This document shows positions 31,554 through 36,924 of a DNA stretch of 36,924 nucleotides, in pieces (the stretch's first letter is position 1; every line of letters begins with the position of its first letter). The translations under genes and the position numbers were made by a program. The DNA comes from a virus, in IMG/VR virus record IMGVR_UViG_3300044996_000002, positions 1-36,924 of that record, one strand, 5' to 3'. The notes below the pieces were generated by a model that saw only the letters and a list, made by a program, of their open reading frames with translations, was not told where the DNA came from and ran no database searches.

Positions 31554-31615
31554 CAGAACCTTTCAGCTACGTAACCCACAAGCAGTATGGCAACTGCGCC
31601 AATGATCACAGCCAT
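31550..31615 (-). CDS. 21-residue membrane micropeptide between terminase genes
   Basis: The frame encodes MAVIIGAVAILLVGYVAERFW, a single hydrophobic helix with a short charged end. Its ATG shares a base with the small-terminase stop (TGATG), and its TGA shares a base with the large-terminase ATG (TGATG). GGAG lies seven bases upstream. The tight double coupling and membrane character argue that it is translated. Its role is unknown. Confidence 0.65.
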   Translation of the reverse strand: MAVIIGAVAILLVGYVAERFW

Positions 31616-32178
31616 CAGTCATTCTCCAATCTTGGGGTCACGTCAATCACTTCTGCCTCGATCACCCGGGCTTGGGCCTGCGCCAAGGCTTCCGTGATCG
31701 AGATCGTCCCACCCACCTCGATCTGCTTGGTTTCCCCGTACCGCTTCTTGTTGTGGGCACTCATGAGCCACTTGCGCGTGTCGATGCGCAGTTTGTCACG
31801 GTTGACCGTATCGTTCGATGAGGGGTCTATCGCACCCACGCCATCGGCAATCTCAAGAATCTCCCCGGCGATGAACTCGGTGCGCATCTCCTGCGCCTCC
31901 TTGAATCGCTCATGGCGGATGGGGTCACGTTTGACCCAGCGCAGGAAGTCCTCATACGAGATGAGCCTGTGGTCATCCTCGATCACCGATTGCAGGGATT
32001 TGCCGCGATAAATGTCCTCGATTACCCGCTCGAAGATTTGCTCGTATTCGAGGTGCAGCAGTTCTTTCGCGGCCTTGGTGGGACGCGGTGGCTTGGGGTC
32101 TGGGCACGACAGCCAGTTTGGGAGTGGGGTTTCACCGGTGACAACCGTGCCTACAGAAACGGGGTTTCCTTGTTCCAT
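31615..32178 (-). CDS. Terminase small subunit
   Basis: This 187-residue protein has a Pro-rich N-terminus (PNWLSCPDPKPPRPTKAAKE), a helical DNA-recognition region with LQSVIEDDHRLISYEDFLRW, and a C-terminal oligomerisation region (RIDTRKWLMSAHNKKRYG, then an ISITEALAQAQARVIEAEV end). This is the standard pattern of phage small terminases that recognise the packaging site. The ATG at 32178 lies only about four bases from the predicted transcription start and has no ribosome binding site, so initiation may be nearly leaderless. An upstream extension in frame is rejected because it runs through the promoter. Confidence 0.85.
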   Translation of the reverse strand: MEQGNPVSVGTVVTGETPLPNWLSCPDPKPPRPTKAAKELLHLEYEQIFERVIEDIYRGKSLQSVIEDDHRLISYEDFLRWVKRDPIRHERFKEAQEMRTEFIAGEILEIADGVGAIDPSSNDTVNRDKLRIDTRKWLMSAHNKKRYGETKQIEVGGTISITEALAQAQARVIEAEVIDVTPRLEND

Positions 32179-32188
32179 AGTGAGTGGG

Positions 32189-32218
32189 AGTGTACAGCGG
32201 TTTGCTGAGTCTGTGCAA
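32189..32218 (-). promoter_or_regulatory. Late promoter before the terminase genes
   Basis: On the minus strand TTGCAC (32218-32213) and TACACT (32194-32189) are 18 bases apart. The -10 hexamer equals that of the replication-operon promoter at 1846. One copy of the ACCCATTGGGT palindrome lies 24 bases upstream of the -35, where an activator or repressor could act. Confidence 0.55.
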
Positions 32219-32241: not shown

Positions 32242-32798
32242 ACCCATTGGGTTTTTGATTTTGAAAAAAATTTTCACGGGTTTTGTGATACCGACGTAGC
32301 TGGACCATCGACCCCCTTGGACCTACCCCTCCCCCTTGCGCCCGCGACCCCCGGGCACCACGGCAACCGGCACCCGGGCGCGACACCACGGCACCCGCGC
32401 ACCCGCTGGGTCAGAGAATCGGGGGATTCATTAACCCGCTGGGTTAAGGTGCCCGGGGCCTTTTTGGTTTTTCGGGGTGCACAAAACCCGCGCACCCAGT
32501 GGGTTAGGGGTTCAATCGAAAAGCCGGGGGAAAACTGGGGAAAGGGGCACCCAGTGGGTCAGAGTTCCCGGTTTTGGGGGTGATGGGGACAAAAACCCCT
32601 TTTCGCGCGCACGCGACCCCTTGTTTTATACGATTTTGAAAAAGCACTTATTTTCTGGTTTTCCCAAAATGCACCCCTAGAACCAAAAGGGCCATTTGTC
32701 ACCAGATACACCAAGACACCCCAAACGCTACCCACTGGGTCAGGGAAAACACCTACAATCTTTTTTGGTGTACCCCTTGACATCGTGACCCAGTGGGT
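32242..32798. repeat. Array of seven 11-bp palindromic sites ACCC(A/G)NTGGGT
   Basis: Copies: 32242-32252 (ACCCATTGGGT), 32401-32411 and 32434-32444 (ACCCGCTGGGT), 32494-32504 and 32549-32559 (ACCCAGTGGGT), 32730-32740 (ACCCACTGGGT) and 32788-32798 (ACCCAGTGGGT). Most are followed by T(C/T)A. The 32434 copy extends to a 17-bp palindrome, TTAACCCGCTGGGTTAA. The last copy fills the spacer of a promoter. These are most likely binding sites for a dimeric phage regulator. Confidence 0.85.
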
Positions 32799-32804
32799 TA
32801 CAAT
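32777..32804 (+). promoter_or_regulatory. Strong promoter with embedded operator
   Basis: A perfect -35 TTGACA (32777-32782) and a near-consensus -10 TACAAT (32799-32804) are 16 bases apart. The palindrome ACCCAGTGGGT (32788-32798) occupies the downstream 11 bases of the spacer and touches the -10. A bound protein would exclude RNA polymerase, so this promoter is probably repressed. It reads into the accessory operon beginning at 32853. Confidence 0.8.
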
Positions 32805-32852
32805 GAACCCGTGACACCCGTAAACCGTAACCCCTCGAAAGGAACCGAAACA

Positions 32853-32999
32853 ATGAACCGCCACAAGTTAACCTACGTCGATCTTCACCCCCAGCCCGTG
32901 AAGGTTGAAGAAGCCCCGCCCCTATGGGCGCAAGTGCTGGGGGGCCTTATCGCCGCCGCTGCGCTCTATCTTTCCCTTGTTTTCCTCTTTTCCCTGTAA
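32853..32999 (+). CDS. Small membrane protein, first gene of the accessory operon
   Basis: This 48-residue protein begins MNRHKLTYVDLHPQPVKVEE. Its C-terminal half is one transmembrane helix (LGGLIAAAALYLSLVFLFSL), so the N-terminus is probably cytoplasmic. AAAGGA lies before the ATG. It follows the operator-controlled promoter by about 40 bases, so it should be the most directly regulated product. No family is recognised; early host-membrane modification or exclusion are possibilities without evidence. Confidence 0.7.
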   Translation: MNRHKLTYVDLHPQPVKVEEAPPLWAQVLGGLIAAAALYLSLVFLFSL

Positions 33000-33020
33000 C
33001 CCGTAACCGTAAAGGACTGA
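32992..33020 (+). repeat. Intergenic translation-start repeat, copy 1
   Basis: A 29-base element includes the stop codon of the upstream gene (CCCTGTAACCCGTAACCG) and ends with the ribosome binding site AAAGGACTGA before the ATG at 33025. It recurs at 33832-33860 with one difference (A/G). Confidence 0.8.
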
Positions 33021-33024
33021 CGCT

Positions 33025-33492
33025 ATGAGCAAGAAAGCCGATTACTACATGCAAGCCCCGGGCGGTGAAGTGTTCCGCACTTCGTACCCCGAGTACCACA
33101 AAGAATGCACCCAGTTAACCCGGGCCGAAGGCGAGAAGATTTATCGGGCGCAAGTGCTCACCGAAGCGAAGCGCAAGATTAAACCCGGCCAGAAAATCTA
33201 TTGCACCCTTCGCAGTGTTTCATCTTCGGGCATGTCGCGCCGCATCAGCTTACACACAATTTACAAAGGCGAGTTGATCCCTTTGGACTACACCGCGAGC
33301 GTATTAACCGGGCGCACTTTGTCAGACAAGGGCGGCATTGTGTGCAACGGGTGTGGGATGGATATGGGCTTCGATTTGGTCTATTCGCTGGGGTATTCGA
33401 TTTGGCCCAAAGGCACCCCGAAGGCGCACGGCACCCGCAACGGCCAGCCGGACAAAGACGGCGGCTATGCCCTTAACCATGTTTGGATTTGA
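33025..33492 (+). CDS. Conserved phage hypothetical protein
   Basis: This 155-residue protein has a basic first third (LTEAKRKIKPGQKIYCTLRS), then SVSSSGMSRRISLHTI, a segment that recurs in a family of short phage proteins. Two cysteines lie in a VCNGCGMDMGFDLVYSLGYS region, which may bind zinc or contact nucleic acid. The last residues contain GYALNHVW. The gene is preceded by the translation-start repeat. Function unknown; it is probably an early accessory protein because of its position behind the regulated promoter. Confidence 0.78.
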   Translation: MSKKADYYMQAPGGEVFRTSYPEYHKECTQLTRAEGEKIYRAQVLTEAKRKIKPGQKIYCTLRSVSSSGMSRRISLHTIYKGELIPLDYTASVLTGRTLSDKGGIVCNGCGMDMGFDLVYSLGYSIWPKGTPKAHGTRNGQPDKDGGYALNHVWI

Positions 33493-33503
33493 GGGGGTGC
33501 ACA

Positions 33504-33839
33504 ATGACTCATTGGGAACAAATTAACCGCGAAACCGTGGACGGGTTCGACATCGTTTTTTCAGTTGCACCCGAAGATATGCACCCCGGGGACTCATTCG
33601 ACCCTGAATACTTCGACATCCCCCAGCTATGCGAAGACATCAACCGGGGCCGTTATTCGTGGTTTATCGCCCGGGTGCAGGCTTTCCGCGCCGGGGTTGA
33701 ACTCGCCGCCGACTATCTGGGCGGGTGTCTGTACGACTCCCCCGCCGACTTCGTGAAAGCCGGGGACTACTACGCCGACATGGTGAACACCGTAACCCGC
33801 GAAGCCCGCGCCAAAATCGAAGAACTCGCCGCCCTGTAA
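33504..33839 (+). CDS. Hypothetical accessory protein (111 residues)
   Basis: This acidic protein begins MTHWEQINRETVDGFDIVFS and contains SVAPEDMHPGDSFDPEYFDI and SWFIARVQAFRAGVELAADY. The pattern resembles small phage proteins with a short beta-sheet and one helix. GAGGGGGTGCACAATG supplies the start; the same GGGGGTGCACAATGA string precedes the gene at 34205. No named family and no catalytic motif can be assigned. Confidence 0.75.
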   Translation: MTHWEQINRETVDGFDIVFSVAPEDMHPGDSFDPEYFDIPQLCEDINRGRYSWFIARVQAFRAGVELAADYLGGCLYDSPADFVKAGDYYADMVNTVTREARAKIEELAAL

Positions 33840-33860
33840 CCCGTAACCGTGAAGGACTGA
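33832..33860 (+). repeat. Intergenic translation-start repeat, copy 2
   Basis: This second copy of the 29-base element at 32992-33020 again spans the stop codon of the upstream gene and ends in the ribosome binding site GAAGGACTGA before the ATG at 33864. The only difference is G at 33851 for A at 33011. The 840-base spacing is consistent with an old gene-block duplication or spread of an expression cassette. Confidence 0.8.
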
Positions 33861-33863
33861 AAA

Positions 33864-34208
33864 ATGATTGACCTGTTGAAACTCGAAGCCCCTGAAGCCG
33901 AGCGCATCGCCTACGCTGAAGGGTTCACAATGGCCGCTGAACTGTTCGCCCGTATCGCCGACCTTGAAGCCGAACGGGATGCACTGGCCGGGGAACTTGA
34001 AGACCTGAAGGACGCCCAGCCCGACCCGCGCCAAGTGCAGCAAGACGCGCAAGACCTTGAGCACTTGAAACAGTTCTTTTACGACTGTTTCCAGCGACTT
34101 GCGGGCCATTACCCCGCCCCGTCCGTGACTTCGGACTACGACAAATCCGTGATTTTCGCCGCCATTGAACGGGGCGAAGGACTCGACGCGAACGGGGGTG
34201 CACAATGA
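33864..34208 (+). CDS. Coiled-coil accessory protein
   Basis: This 114-residue acidic protein is almost entirely helical. Its N-terminal half contains a heptad-like stretch (ELFARIADLEAERDALAGEL). A second helix (DLEHLKQFFYDCFQRLAG) and a short tail follow. It probably oligomerises. The stop overlaps the next ATG by four bases. No family recognised. The position in the accessory operon suggests a host-takeover or regulatory function, without direct evidence. Confidence 0.75.
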   Translation: MIDLLKLEAPEAERIAYAEGFTMAAELFARIADLEAERDALAGELEDLKDAQPDPRQVQQDAQDLEHLKQFFYDCFQRLAGHYPAPSVTSDYDKSVIFAAIERGEGLDANGGAQ

Positions 34209-34396
34209 ACCGACCAATGGCCGCACCCCCGTGGGATTCGTACCGATACCGGGGCCGCTATGGCTTCATCATGATCGGGGCGCGGGATACCGCCGAAGCA
34301 CTGACCGAAGCCCGCCGAAGCACTGACGGCCCCGTAACCCTTGACCATCTCGAAAAGTGGGACGGTACCCAGTACACACAAGCCCGGGGGCGCTGA
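34205..34396 (+). CDS. Small hypothetical protein (63 residues)
   Basis: This protein contains SYRYRGRYGFIMIGARDTAE followed by ALTEARRSTDGPVTLDHLEK and ends QARGR. The fold is probably a small alpha/beta domain. The ATG overlaps the preceding stop (ATGA) and is preceded by GGGGGTGCACA. The TGA shares a base with a 24-residue micropeptide start (TGATG). Function unknown. Confidence 0.7.
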   Translation: MNRPMAAPPWDSYRYRGRYGFIMIGARDTAEALTEARRSTDGPVTLDHLEKWDGTQYTQARGR

Positions 34397-34470
34397 TGTT
34401 TACCGCGCTACTTATCGCCATTGTCGGGGCGCTATTGCTCCCCGCGATTGAAAAGTTCCTAGACCTGTAA
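34396..34470 (+). CDS. 24-residue membrane micropeptide
   Basis: The frame encodes a single hydrophobic helix (MFTALLIAIVGALLLPAIEK, then FLDL). It is coupled to the preceding gene by TGATG and ends 25 bases before an intrinsic terminator, so it is the last gene of this transcription unit. Similar coupled membrane peptides are found at 31550 and 35312. Confidence 0.6.
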   Translation: MFTALLIAIVGALLLPAIEKFLDL

Positions 34471-34494
34471 CCCCTGACCCCTTCAACCCCCGAA

Positions 34495-34516
34495 CCCGGC
34501 CCCGTGCCGGGTTTTT
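34495..34516 (+). terminator. Intrinsic terminator of the first accessory unit
   Basis: CCCGGC (34495-34500) pairs with GCCGGG (34506-34511) around a CCCGT loop, followed by TTTTT (34512-34516). It ends the unit started by the promoter at 32777 and separates it from the helix-turn-helix gene. Confidence 0.85.
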
Positions 34517-34539
34517 CTGACCCCGGAGAACCCTAACCT

Positions 34540-34881
34540 ATGACCACCCAGAAAAAACCCCGTATAGCCCGCCCTAACCCGGCCCCGGGCACCTTCGCCG
34601 CCCGGGTCCGCGACACCCTGCACCGTTTGAACCTTGACGAACCCCGCGCCGCTGATTATTTCGGCGTGCCCGTGTTTACCCTTCGCAAGTGGGCCACGGG
34701 GGAGCGTCAACCCGGCGCGGCAGTGCTCCGCCTTTTTGAAGTCCTCGGCATCGTCGAAGCTATGGTCCCCGCGCTCCACGCCTCGCTTTTGCCCTCAGAA
34801 TCGCGTCATGTCGAAAAATCCCGTTCCAAAAGGTCAACCGGTTCAAGTGCCGATTCGGTCATGTCGAAAAATCCCGTTTGA
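34540..34881 (+). CDS. Helix-turn-helix DNA-binding protein
   Basis: This 113-residue protein has a basic N-terminus (KKPRIARPNPAPG) and a Cro/XRE-like helix-turn-helix at about residues 24-72: LNLDEPRAADYFGVPVFTLR, then WATGERQPGA and LRLFEVLGI. It probably binds DNA as a dimer and is a candidate ligand of the palindromes at 32242-32798. The last 30 residues (RHVEKSRSKRSTGSSADS) look disordered and are encoded over a 34-base direct repeat, so the C-terminus may have been altered. It lies directly after the terminator. Confidence 0.75.
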   Translation: MTTQKKPRIARPNPAPGTFAARVRDTLHRLNLDEPRAADYFGVPVFTLRKWATGERQPGAAVLRLFEVLGIVEAMVPALHASLLPSESRHVEKSRSKRSTGSSADSVMSKNPV

Positions 34882-34892: not shown

Positions 34893-35315
34893 ATGAGTAT
34901 CGAAGCAATGAAGCTGGCGCTGGAGGCGTTGGAGTCTATCGGCGATCAGTGGGGGTTTACATCAAAACGCACGGTGCCGAAAAGACTTGAGGCCATCGTC
35001 GCCCTACGCCAAGCCATTGAGCGGGCAGAGCAGGCGAATCAATGGCAAAGCACAGCAGACAAGGTGCAACTGGAAAAAGTACCCGCCAAGGGCGGGCTGT
35101 TACCAGAGCAGGAGCCTGTGGCGTGGAAAGATAAAACATACGGGAACTTGCACCACCAAGATTTTGGAAACTCAATTCCACTATTTGTCGCACCACCAAA
35201 GCGTGAATGGGTAGTGTTAACGGATGACGAGATAGATGATTGTTTTAGGGAATCTACAGGGGACTATTCATTTGCCCAGAATGTCGAAGCCAAACTCAAG
35301 GAGAAGAACACATGA
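34893..35315 (+). CDS. Conserved phage hypothetical protein
   Basis: This 140-residue protein has an N-terminal helical part with MSIEAMKLALEALESIGDQW and LRQAIERAE. A linker with EQEPVAWK, a NIPLF-like strand, and APPKREWVVLTDDEIDDCF follow. This ALEALE ... EPVAW ... PLF.APP.REWV.LTDDEI pattern is widespread in proteobacterial phages, usually without known function. It starts with GAAGGAGTCAACCATG. The stop overlaps the next micropeptide start (ATGA). Confidence 0.8.
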   Translation: MSIEAMKLALEALESIGDQWGFTSKRTVPKRLEAIVALRQAIERAEQANQWQSTADKVQLEKVPAKGGLLPEQEPVAWKDKTYGNLHHQDFGNSIPLFVAPPKREWVVLTDDEIDDCFRESTGDYSFAQNVEAKLKEKNT

Positions 35316-35878: not shown

Positions 35879-36924
35879 TCATTCCTCGTCCATGCTGGGG
35901 TCATATCCCTTGACCAGCTTACGCTCGTACCCCTTCTCGATGGCGTAGCGGTAAATGTAGTCGGCGTGGCGCTGCTTGGCCTTGATCACCTTCTCACGGT
36001 ACCCCTTGAACATGGCAGGCAGACTCGGGTTGATGGCCCACACGACCTTCTTCTTGTGCAGTTCGCTCTCCACCTGCACCACCCAGCCCGCTTGTTCGAG
36101 CACCAGCATGGCGTCCATGACCGCCTGATCCTTCTGCCAGTCGGTCTTGCCCTCCAGCGGACGCCGCGCTGACTTCTTGAGGGTGCGCAGGTCCACCATC
36201 TGCGTATCCCCGCTGATCTGGATCACATGATCAATCACCCACTGGTCGAAGTCGTTCGTGATCGCACCGCCCACCTCACCCAGCGCGTACCGGTAAGCCG
36301 GGATCACGTAGCCACGGATCAAGGAGACGACCCTGTGGACAACATCGACGCTCACCTGCGGGGAGAACGGCGACTCGATGATGTGGAACAGCAGAATCAG
36401 ACGGCCAGCAAGACCCTCCAGCTTGCCGAACGCCGTCATGTACTCTGTGCCCGAGTCCAGCACCCGCTCGTCCTGTTTGGCCTGCTCATACCACGATTGG
36501 AACTCGCGGAAAGCTGTGAATGCTTCTGTGGATAACTGGTAGGTCTGGGGTGGCAGCGCGTAGGTCAGGCGCAGGGTGTTCTCCCATGCTGCCGCACTGG
36601 TCATGTACTCGGGGATCGGGTGGCCCAGCTTGGTCTTGCTCCCGCGCAGCACGGCGGGGATGAATCGCTGGAGCAGGCCGTCCGCTGCGAGGGAGGCCAG
36701 ATTCTGCCGGAACACCTGCGGCTGGATGTTGCCGTAGATGCTGACGGCCAAGTTCTCGCAGTAGATCGAGCCAGCGCCCACCCGGTCCATCTCGTAGTGT
36801 TCTGACTCGTAGCTGACAACCCACGCTGACCGATCCTCGCCGCTGGTCTTGTCGGTCAGCTTGCGCACCCATGAGTTCATCTCGTCGAGGTGGCACAGCA
36901 GCCCCCGCGGACGGTCTGCCGCTT
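35879..36924 (-). CDS. Primase-polymerase / DUF3987 protein, C-terminal part
   Basis: This is the C-terminal portion of the 833-residue protein whose N-terminus is encoded at 1-1693. Positions 36688-36924 duplicate 1-237, so the unique C-terminal part starts at 36687. It carries the rest of the DUF3987-type ATPase: the end of Walker B (LDEMNSWVRKL), YESEHYEMDRVGAGSIYCEN, a motif-like VSIYGNIQPQVFRQNL, and a C-terminal winged-helix-like region near residues 720-800. The stop is 35879. An ATG at 36880 is internal and not the real start. It lies next to the terminator at 35854. Confidence 0.88.
   Translation of the reverse strand, partial: AADRPRGLLCHLDEMNSWVRKLTDKTSGEDRSAWVVSYESEHYEMDRVGAGSIYCENLAVSIYGNIQPQVFRQNLASLAADGLLQRFIPAVLRGSKTKLGHPIPEYMTSAAAWENTLRLTYALPPQTYQLSTEAFTAFREFQSWYEQAKQDERVLDSGTEYMTAFGKLEGLAGRLILLFHIIESPFSPQVSVDVVHRVVSLIRGYVIPAYRYALGEVGGAITNDFDQWVIDHVIQISGDTQMVDLRTLKKSARRPLEGKTDWQKDQAVMDAMLVLEQAGWVVQVESELHKKKVVWAINPSLPAMFKGYREKVIKAKQRHADYIYRYAIEKGYERKLVKGYDPSMDEE
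36688..36924. repeat. Terminal direct repeat, right copy
   Basis: This repeats positions 1-237 with one difference (G at 36797, T at 110). Together they show that the window is a full circular genome with an overlap. The mismatch could be a population polymorphism or a sequencing error; in the primase gene this copy encodes His and the left copy Gln. Confidence 0.95.

Follow-up and report, generated by a model that had tools for sequence, protein, structure and literature searches.

In phage lambda, one protein, CI, represses one promoter and activates another. In Bacillus phage phi29, the early regulator p4 binds several inverted-repeat sites (CTTTTT-15 bp-AAAATG) placed between the divergent early and late promoters A2c, A2b and A3. 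These sites overlap the early promoters. A3, the late one, has a poor -35 and is p4-dependent, and p4 works with p6 (PMC3100819). The operator of the antitoxin MqsA is ACCT-N3-AGGT, in its extended form TAACCT-N3-AGGTTA (PMC5422877, PMC4901048). The phage site described here is ACCC-N3-GGGT. It has the half-site order and the 3-base spacer of the MqsA operator, differs from it by one base in each half (inner T to C), and occurs in many copies connected with the control of phage genes. As with phi29 p4, the sites overlap a strong promoter of early type and precede a promoter with a poor -35, and the array would do a similar job. Unlike in phi29, the putative regulator is a small helix-turn-helix (HTH) protein and the sites number mostly 3 to 10 per locus (17 in one fragment); the published p4 structure is unlike the all-helical fold predicted for the HTH protein. 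As with CI, a single protein could act as repressor where its site overlaps a promoter and as activator where its site lies beside a -35; the protein is another one, the sites are more numerous, the target is a terminase promoter, and the annotation of the relative DSL-LC05 lists no lysogeny genes. A preliminary description of this DNA could name no described equivalent, which is too strong, since p4 does the same job and MqsA has the same operator geometry (PMC3100819, PMC5422877, PMC4901048).

The window analysed is the whole IMG/VR phage record of 36,924 bases. A motif scan finds seven ACCC-N3-GGGT sites, each of 11 bp, within 557 bp. Judged by the list of open reading frames, they lie in the only large non-coding stretch of the record, as the preliminary description had it. 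The proximal (left) site, ACCCATTGGGT, is at 32242-32252. Four central sites follow, ACCCGCTGGGT at 32401-32411 and 32434-32444, and ACCCAGTGGGT at 32494-32504 and 32549-32559. On the right, the upstream site ACCCACTGGGT (32730-32740) stands 58 bp before the promoter site ACCCAGTGGGT (32788-32798); a spacing of 58-61 bp is by far the commonest for this pair, found in 35 of 44 relatives. Counted on both strands, the matches number 12, where shuffled sequences predict 0.28 and not one of 100 shuffles gives as many. The preliminary description had reported seven copies at these positions and no full match elsewhere; both points are confirmed, and the scan of the whole record finds no exact match outside the array, in coding regions or elsewhere. 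One-mismatch copies beyond the array occur at 8 scattered places in the record. A blind palindrome scan ranks ACCC-3-GGGT first among the families of the window, and first or second in most relatives. The candidate binding sequence for the HTH protein would be ACCCANTGGGT.

Conserved in relatives. Among 80 loci fetched through the terS protein, all but a few of those that extend far enough have the array upstream of terS, and most relatives whose TerS identity is as low as 35-65% still carry it; the lack of conservation that the preliminary description had named as damaging is thus not observed. The closest named relative of the record is Phage DSL-LC05 (OR003940), with 70% DNA identity over the region and six exact sites in the same place. 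It has an HTH homologue, annotated 'repressor protein C'. It belongs to the proposed family 'Luchaoviridae' from lake metagenomes and is metagenome-assembled, with no isolate; the passages of its paper that were consulted mention neither the array nor a role for the HTH homologue (PMC10611076). Searches found no cultivated close relative of the phage. The HTH profile had no match among genome contigs, so no host was identified.

On the left, the array faces terS, the gene for the small terminase subunit (Sf6-type), located at 31615-32178 on the minus strand and first in the leftward set of packaging and capsid genes. The predicted leftward late promoter (32189-32218, minus strand) consists of a -35 TTGCAC (32218-32213), an 18-bp spacer and a -10 TACACT (32194-32189), followed by the terS ATG at 32178. 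The proximal site is 23 bp upstream of the -35; the 24 bases of the preliminary description are correct within a base. In aligned relatives the ACT before the terS ATG is invariant (ACTATG) and a -10-like hexamer starts 15 or 16 bases before the ATG, from which a terS leader of only a few bases is predicted. The left -35 is usually poor, 3 of 6 consensus matches being the commonest score. The gap between the -35 and the nearest site is mostly 3-5, 13-15 or 24-25 bp; one locus each has 7 and 19 bp, and three have 57-58 bp. Overlap with the -35 is never seen, the gap being 3 or more in every measured locus. Distances from site to ATG cluster at 42-46, 52-55, 62-65 (the class of the window), 85 and 96-97. 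Their phase strength at 10.5 bp, the best of the periods tried, is R=0.863 (n=88 different upstream sequences). As controls, central-site spacings are unphased (R=0.085) and the distance from the ATG to the right site gives R=0.285; the phase between the two outer sites is weak (R=0.37). The printed p-values for phasing treat the sequences as independent, which they are not, and the argument therefore relies on the magnitude of R and on the tree. Placed on the TerS tree, the distance classes need 40 changes, and identical TerS proteins carry different classes; the steps thus arose, or were exchanged, many times. Repeated indels and promoter recombination between phages would each fit this tree. 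Steps of 10.5 bp suggest activation from the same helix face at the left promoter, and the proximal site is the proposed activator site. Just upstream of it, at about 32255-32295, are A-tracts and a TCAC-N7-GTGA inverted repeat. This stretch is kept in array-bearing relatives and, in a looser form, in array-less ones, and may be a candidate site of another factor.

On the right, the predicted rightward promoter (32777-32804, plus strand, 11 of 12 consensus matches) precedes a gene set that includes the HTH gene. TTGACA (32777-32782) is separated by a 16-bp spacer from TACAAT (32799-32804), and the site at 32788-32798 fills the last 11 bp of that spacer, in agreement with the coordinates given in the preliminary description. 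In most of 51 different contexts with an upstream TTGAC, the site abuts the -10 and the spacer is of 16 to 18 bp; the near-perfect right -35 of this set is partly by construction, because the search required TTGAC. Of 83 loci that carry at least three sites and were taken without this selection, 51 fit the -10-abutting register. Contexts of the rightmost site from 30 of the other 32 show many cases that overlap or run into the -35 (for example TTGACCCAGTGGGT and ACCCAGTGGGTTGACA), and a few remaining loci, such as L021, have no clear promoter there. Across relatives, several registers are thus found in which the right site abuts or overlaps the -10 or the -35. Repressors usually sit over the core promoter; by its position the right site would be a repressing, autoregulatory one. 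Terminator-like patterns in the region are no commoner than in shuffles, and one transcript from 32804 to 34540 is assumed. Between the two right-hand sites, at about 32741-32776, many relatives share a AGGGAAAACACCTAGAAT-like sequence with a T-run after it; the AGGGAAAACACCTAGAAT-like stretch is kept in L094 and L099 despite loss of the upstream site.

The proposed binder is the HTH regulator of 113 aa encoded at 34540-34881 on the plus strand. The HTH core covers residues ~18-84, with the recognition helix at ~45-53. The predicted structure has a confident five-helix core (pLDDT block means 93 to 96, residues 21-80). In a profile search against PDB, MqsA is the best match (E 0.0004 to 0.001), ahead of HigA and other Xre-type regulators; fold comparison puts HigA2, MqsA and similar structures nearest, with intermediate scores throughout. 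The Pfam MqsA model gives 19.8 bits, the cutoff being 30, and the HigA and Xre families match too. The zinc-binding domain of MqsA is not found: the 113 residues include no cysteine and leave no room for the domain. The protein is therefore not an MqsA and is at most a relative of its HTH part, a relationship that is possible and would be confined to the HTH domain. The adjoining gene (34893-35315) has no Pfam match up to E 0.01, to the MqsR toxin or to any other family. In the C-terminal tail (residues ~88-113 of the window protein), SVMSKNPV is retained by many homologues and repeated in L079; other homologues have C-terminal tails of PKRPRGR type instead.

The reading we favour, and consider fairly probable, is that an early MqsA-like HTH protein represses its own operon and activates the late genes through the seven operators. 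The strong rightward promoter (32777-32804) would fire unaided and yield the transcript carrying the HTH gene. As the protein builds up, its dimers would occupy the palindromes. At the site within the promoter, the bound protein would close rightward transcription, its own synthesis included. Upstream of the weak leftward promoter, and on the helix face from which it can reach RNA polymerase, it would switch on terS together with the packaging and structural genes. The threshold would probably be set by the central sites, through cooperative binding or protein titration. A regulatory switch had been suggested in the preliminary description, and this part of it is well supported. The sites, their conservation, their tracking of the HTH gene, the overlap with the right promoter and the phasing on the left are observed features. 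The main rival, judged unlikely, keeps the same binder and makes it a repressor only, which blocks the right promoter directly and the left one by looping, as part of a lysis-lysogeny or delay circuit. Helical phasing taken by itself fits looping as well, the outer sites have their weak mutual phase, and the homologue in DSL-LC05 is annotated as a repressor. However, the left site is clear of both -35 and -10 in all measured loci, while the right site overlaps its promoter; a poor left -35 suits an activated promoter, and no integrase is annotated in DSL-LC05.

Two binders had been put forward in the preliminary description, the HTH protein (34540) and a ribbon-helix-helix (RHH) protein (1883). 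The first is favoured, because it tracks the array. Where at least 3.6 kb are present upstream of terS (67 loci), array and HTH gene occur together in 58, neither occurs in 4, the array alone in none, and the HTH gene with fewer than three exact sites in 5; in L142-type phages, which have the gene and few exact sites, degenerate copies of the site are visible. In the converse search, nearly all loci fetched with the HTH protein that contain the terS-side region have the array. Among 21 genomes, the HTH gene is the sole window gene present in nearly all array-bearing genomes and absent from both array-less ones (G010 and G011). In G004 only the C-terminal end of the HTH protein is found, at the contig start, the gene apparently being split by the contig end. 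Binding of the sites by the RHH protein or by a host regulator is thereby made very improbable: the RHH gene is conserved among the phages, but it persists (60-68% identity) in the array-less G010 and G011, and so does not track the array as the HTH gene does. The RHH protein was dropped as the binder.

The sites might alternatively be iterons of a replication origin, a reading to which we give very little credence. They are intergenic repeats beside an AT-rich conserved inverted-repeat element, and spacings of 22 bp are common among the central sites. Against this, PolB, the SNF2 helicase and the DUF3987 protein are retained in array-less phages, two of the sites are wired into promoters, and GC skew shows no clear turn at the array. 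The DUF3987 gene (35879-36880 and 1-1700) seemingly lies on the minus strand and runs across the record ends; in the corresponding place in DSL-LC05 a primase/polymerase is annotated on the plus strand. The inverted-repeat element (~32587-32700), located between the central and right sites, is the second conserved element of the region. It consists of arms GACA...CCCTTT and AAAGGG...TTGTC, enclosing a loop of ~80 bases in many relatives, including the array-less L082 and L084. Arm sequences vary between phages and are often still complementary. RNAalifold gives only 9 pairs, 3 of them showing double changes, and its covariation term is close to zero; with so few pairs and almost no covariation score the element is not called an RNA, and Rfam has no match over the region. 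Candidates for its function are an origin, a pair of protein sites and an RNA. Least credible of all is the reading that the small terminase binds the array as a packaging (pac/cosB-like) site: the array adjoins terS in nearly all relatives, and in several phages terminase sites lie near terS, but array-less phages keep TerS at ~80% identity while the HTH gene is gone, and the sites are built into promoters at fixed registers.

On the TerL tree the array-less phages form one clade, and the joint absence of HTH gene and array thus counts as one evolutionary event. Because this clade retains the rest of the layout, exchange of the regulator together with its operators is possible. More tentatively than for the mechanism itself, we suggest that a large uncultivated group has a novel phage switch, in which a small antitoxin-like HTH protein shuts off its own early promoter and, bound at helically locked positions, opens a near-leaderless terminase promoter; regulator and operators perhaps form an exchangeable module. 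For phages known solely from environmental sequence, the array offers a testable rule for capsid timing, composed of one small protein, one 11-bp site and two promoters. The left site, which has shifted repeatedly by 10.5 bp, provides a natural experiment on promoter architecture, readable from sequence, and in unannotated relatives the 11-bp site could help to tell early from late gene sets. Replacement of the regulator in the array-less clade was entertained as a guess only, the candidate operators being inconsistent: a pair of GTGTnAC...GTnACAC palindromes, 58 bp apart, has the strict pattern in L082, and this pattern is absent from L084 and L073, where only a looser resemblance is seen. 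No candidate for an alternative regulator was recognised by eye among the ORFs of that clade. Upstream of terS, the array-less L083 and L084 encode a protein of ~185 aa (MLINVTTLKALLLFA...) with a likeness, by eye, to a sliding clamp.
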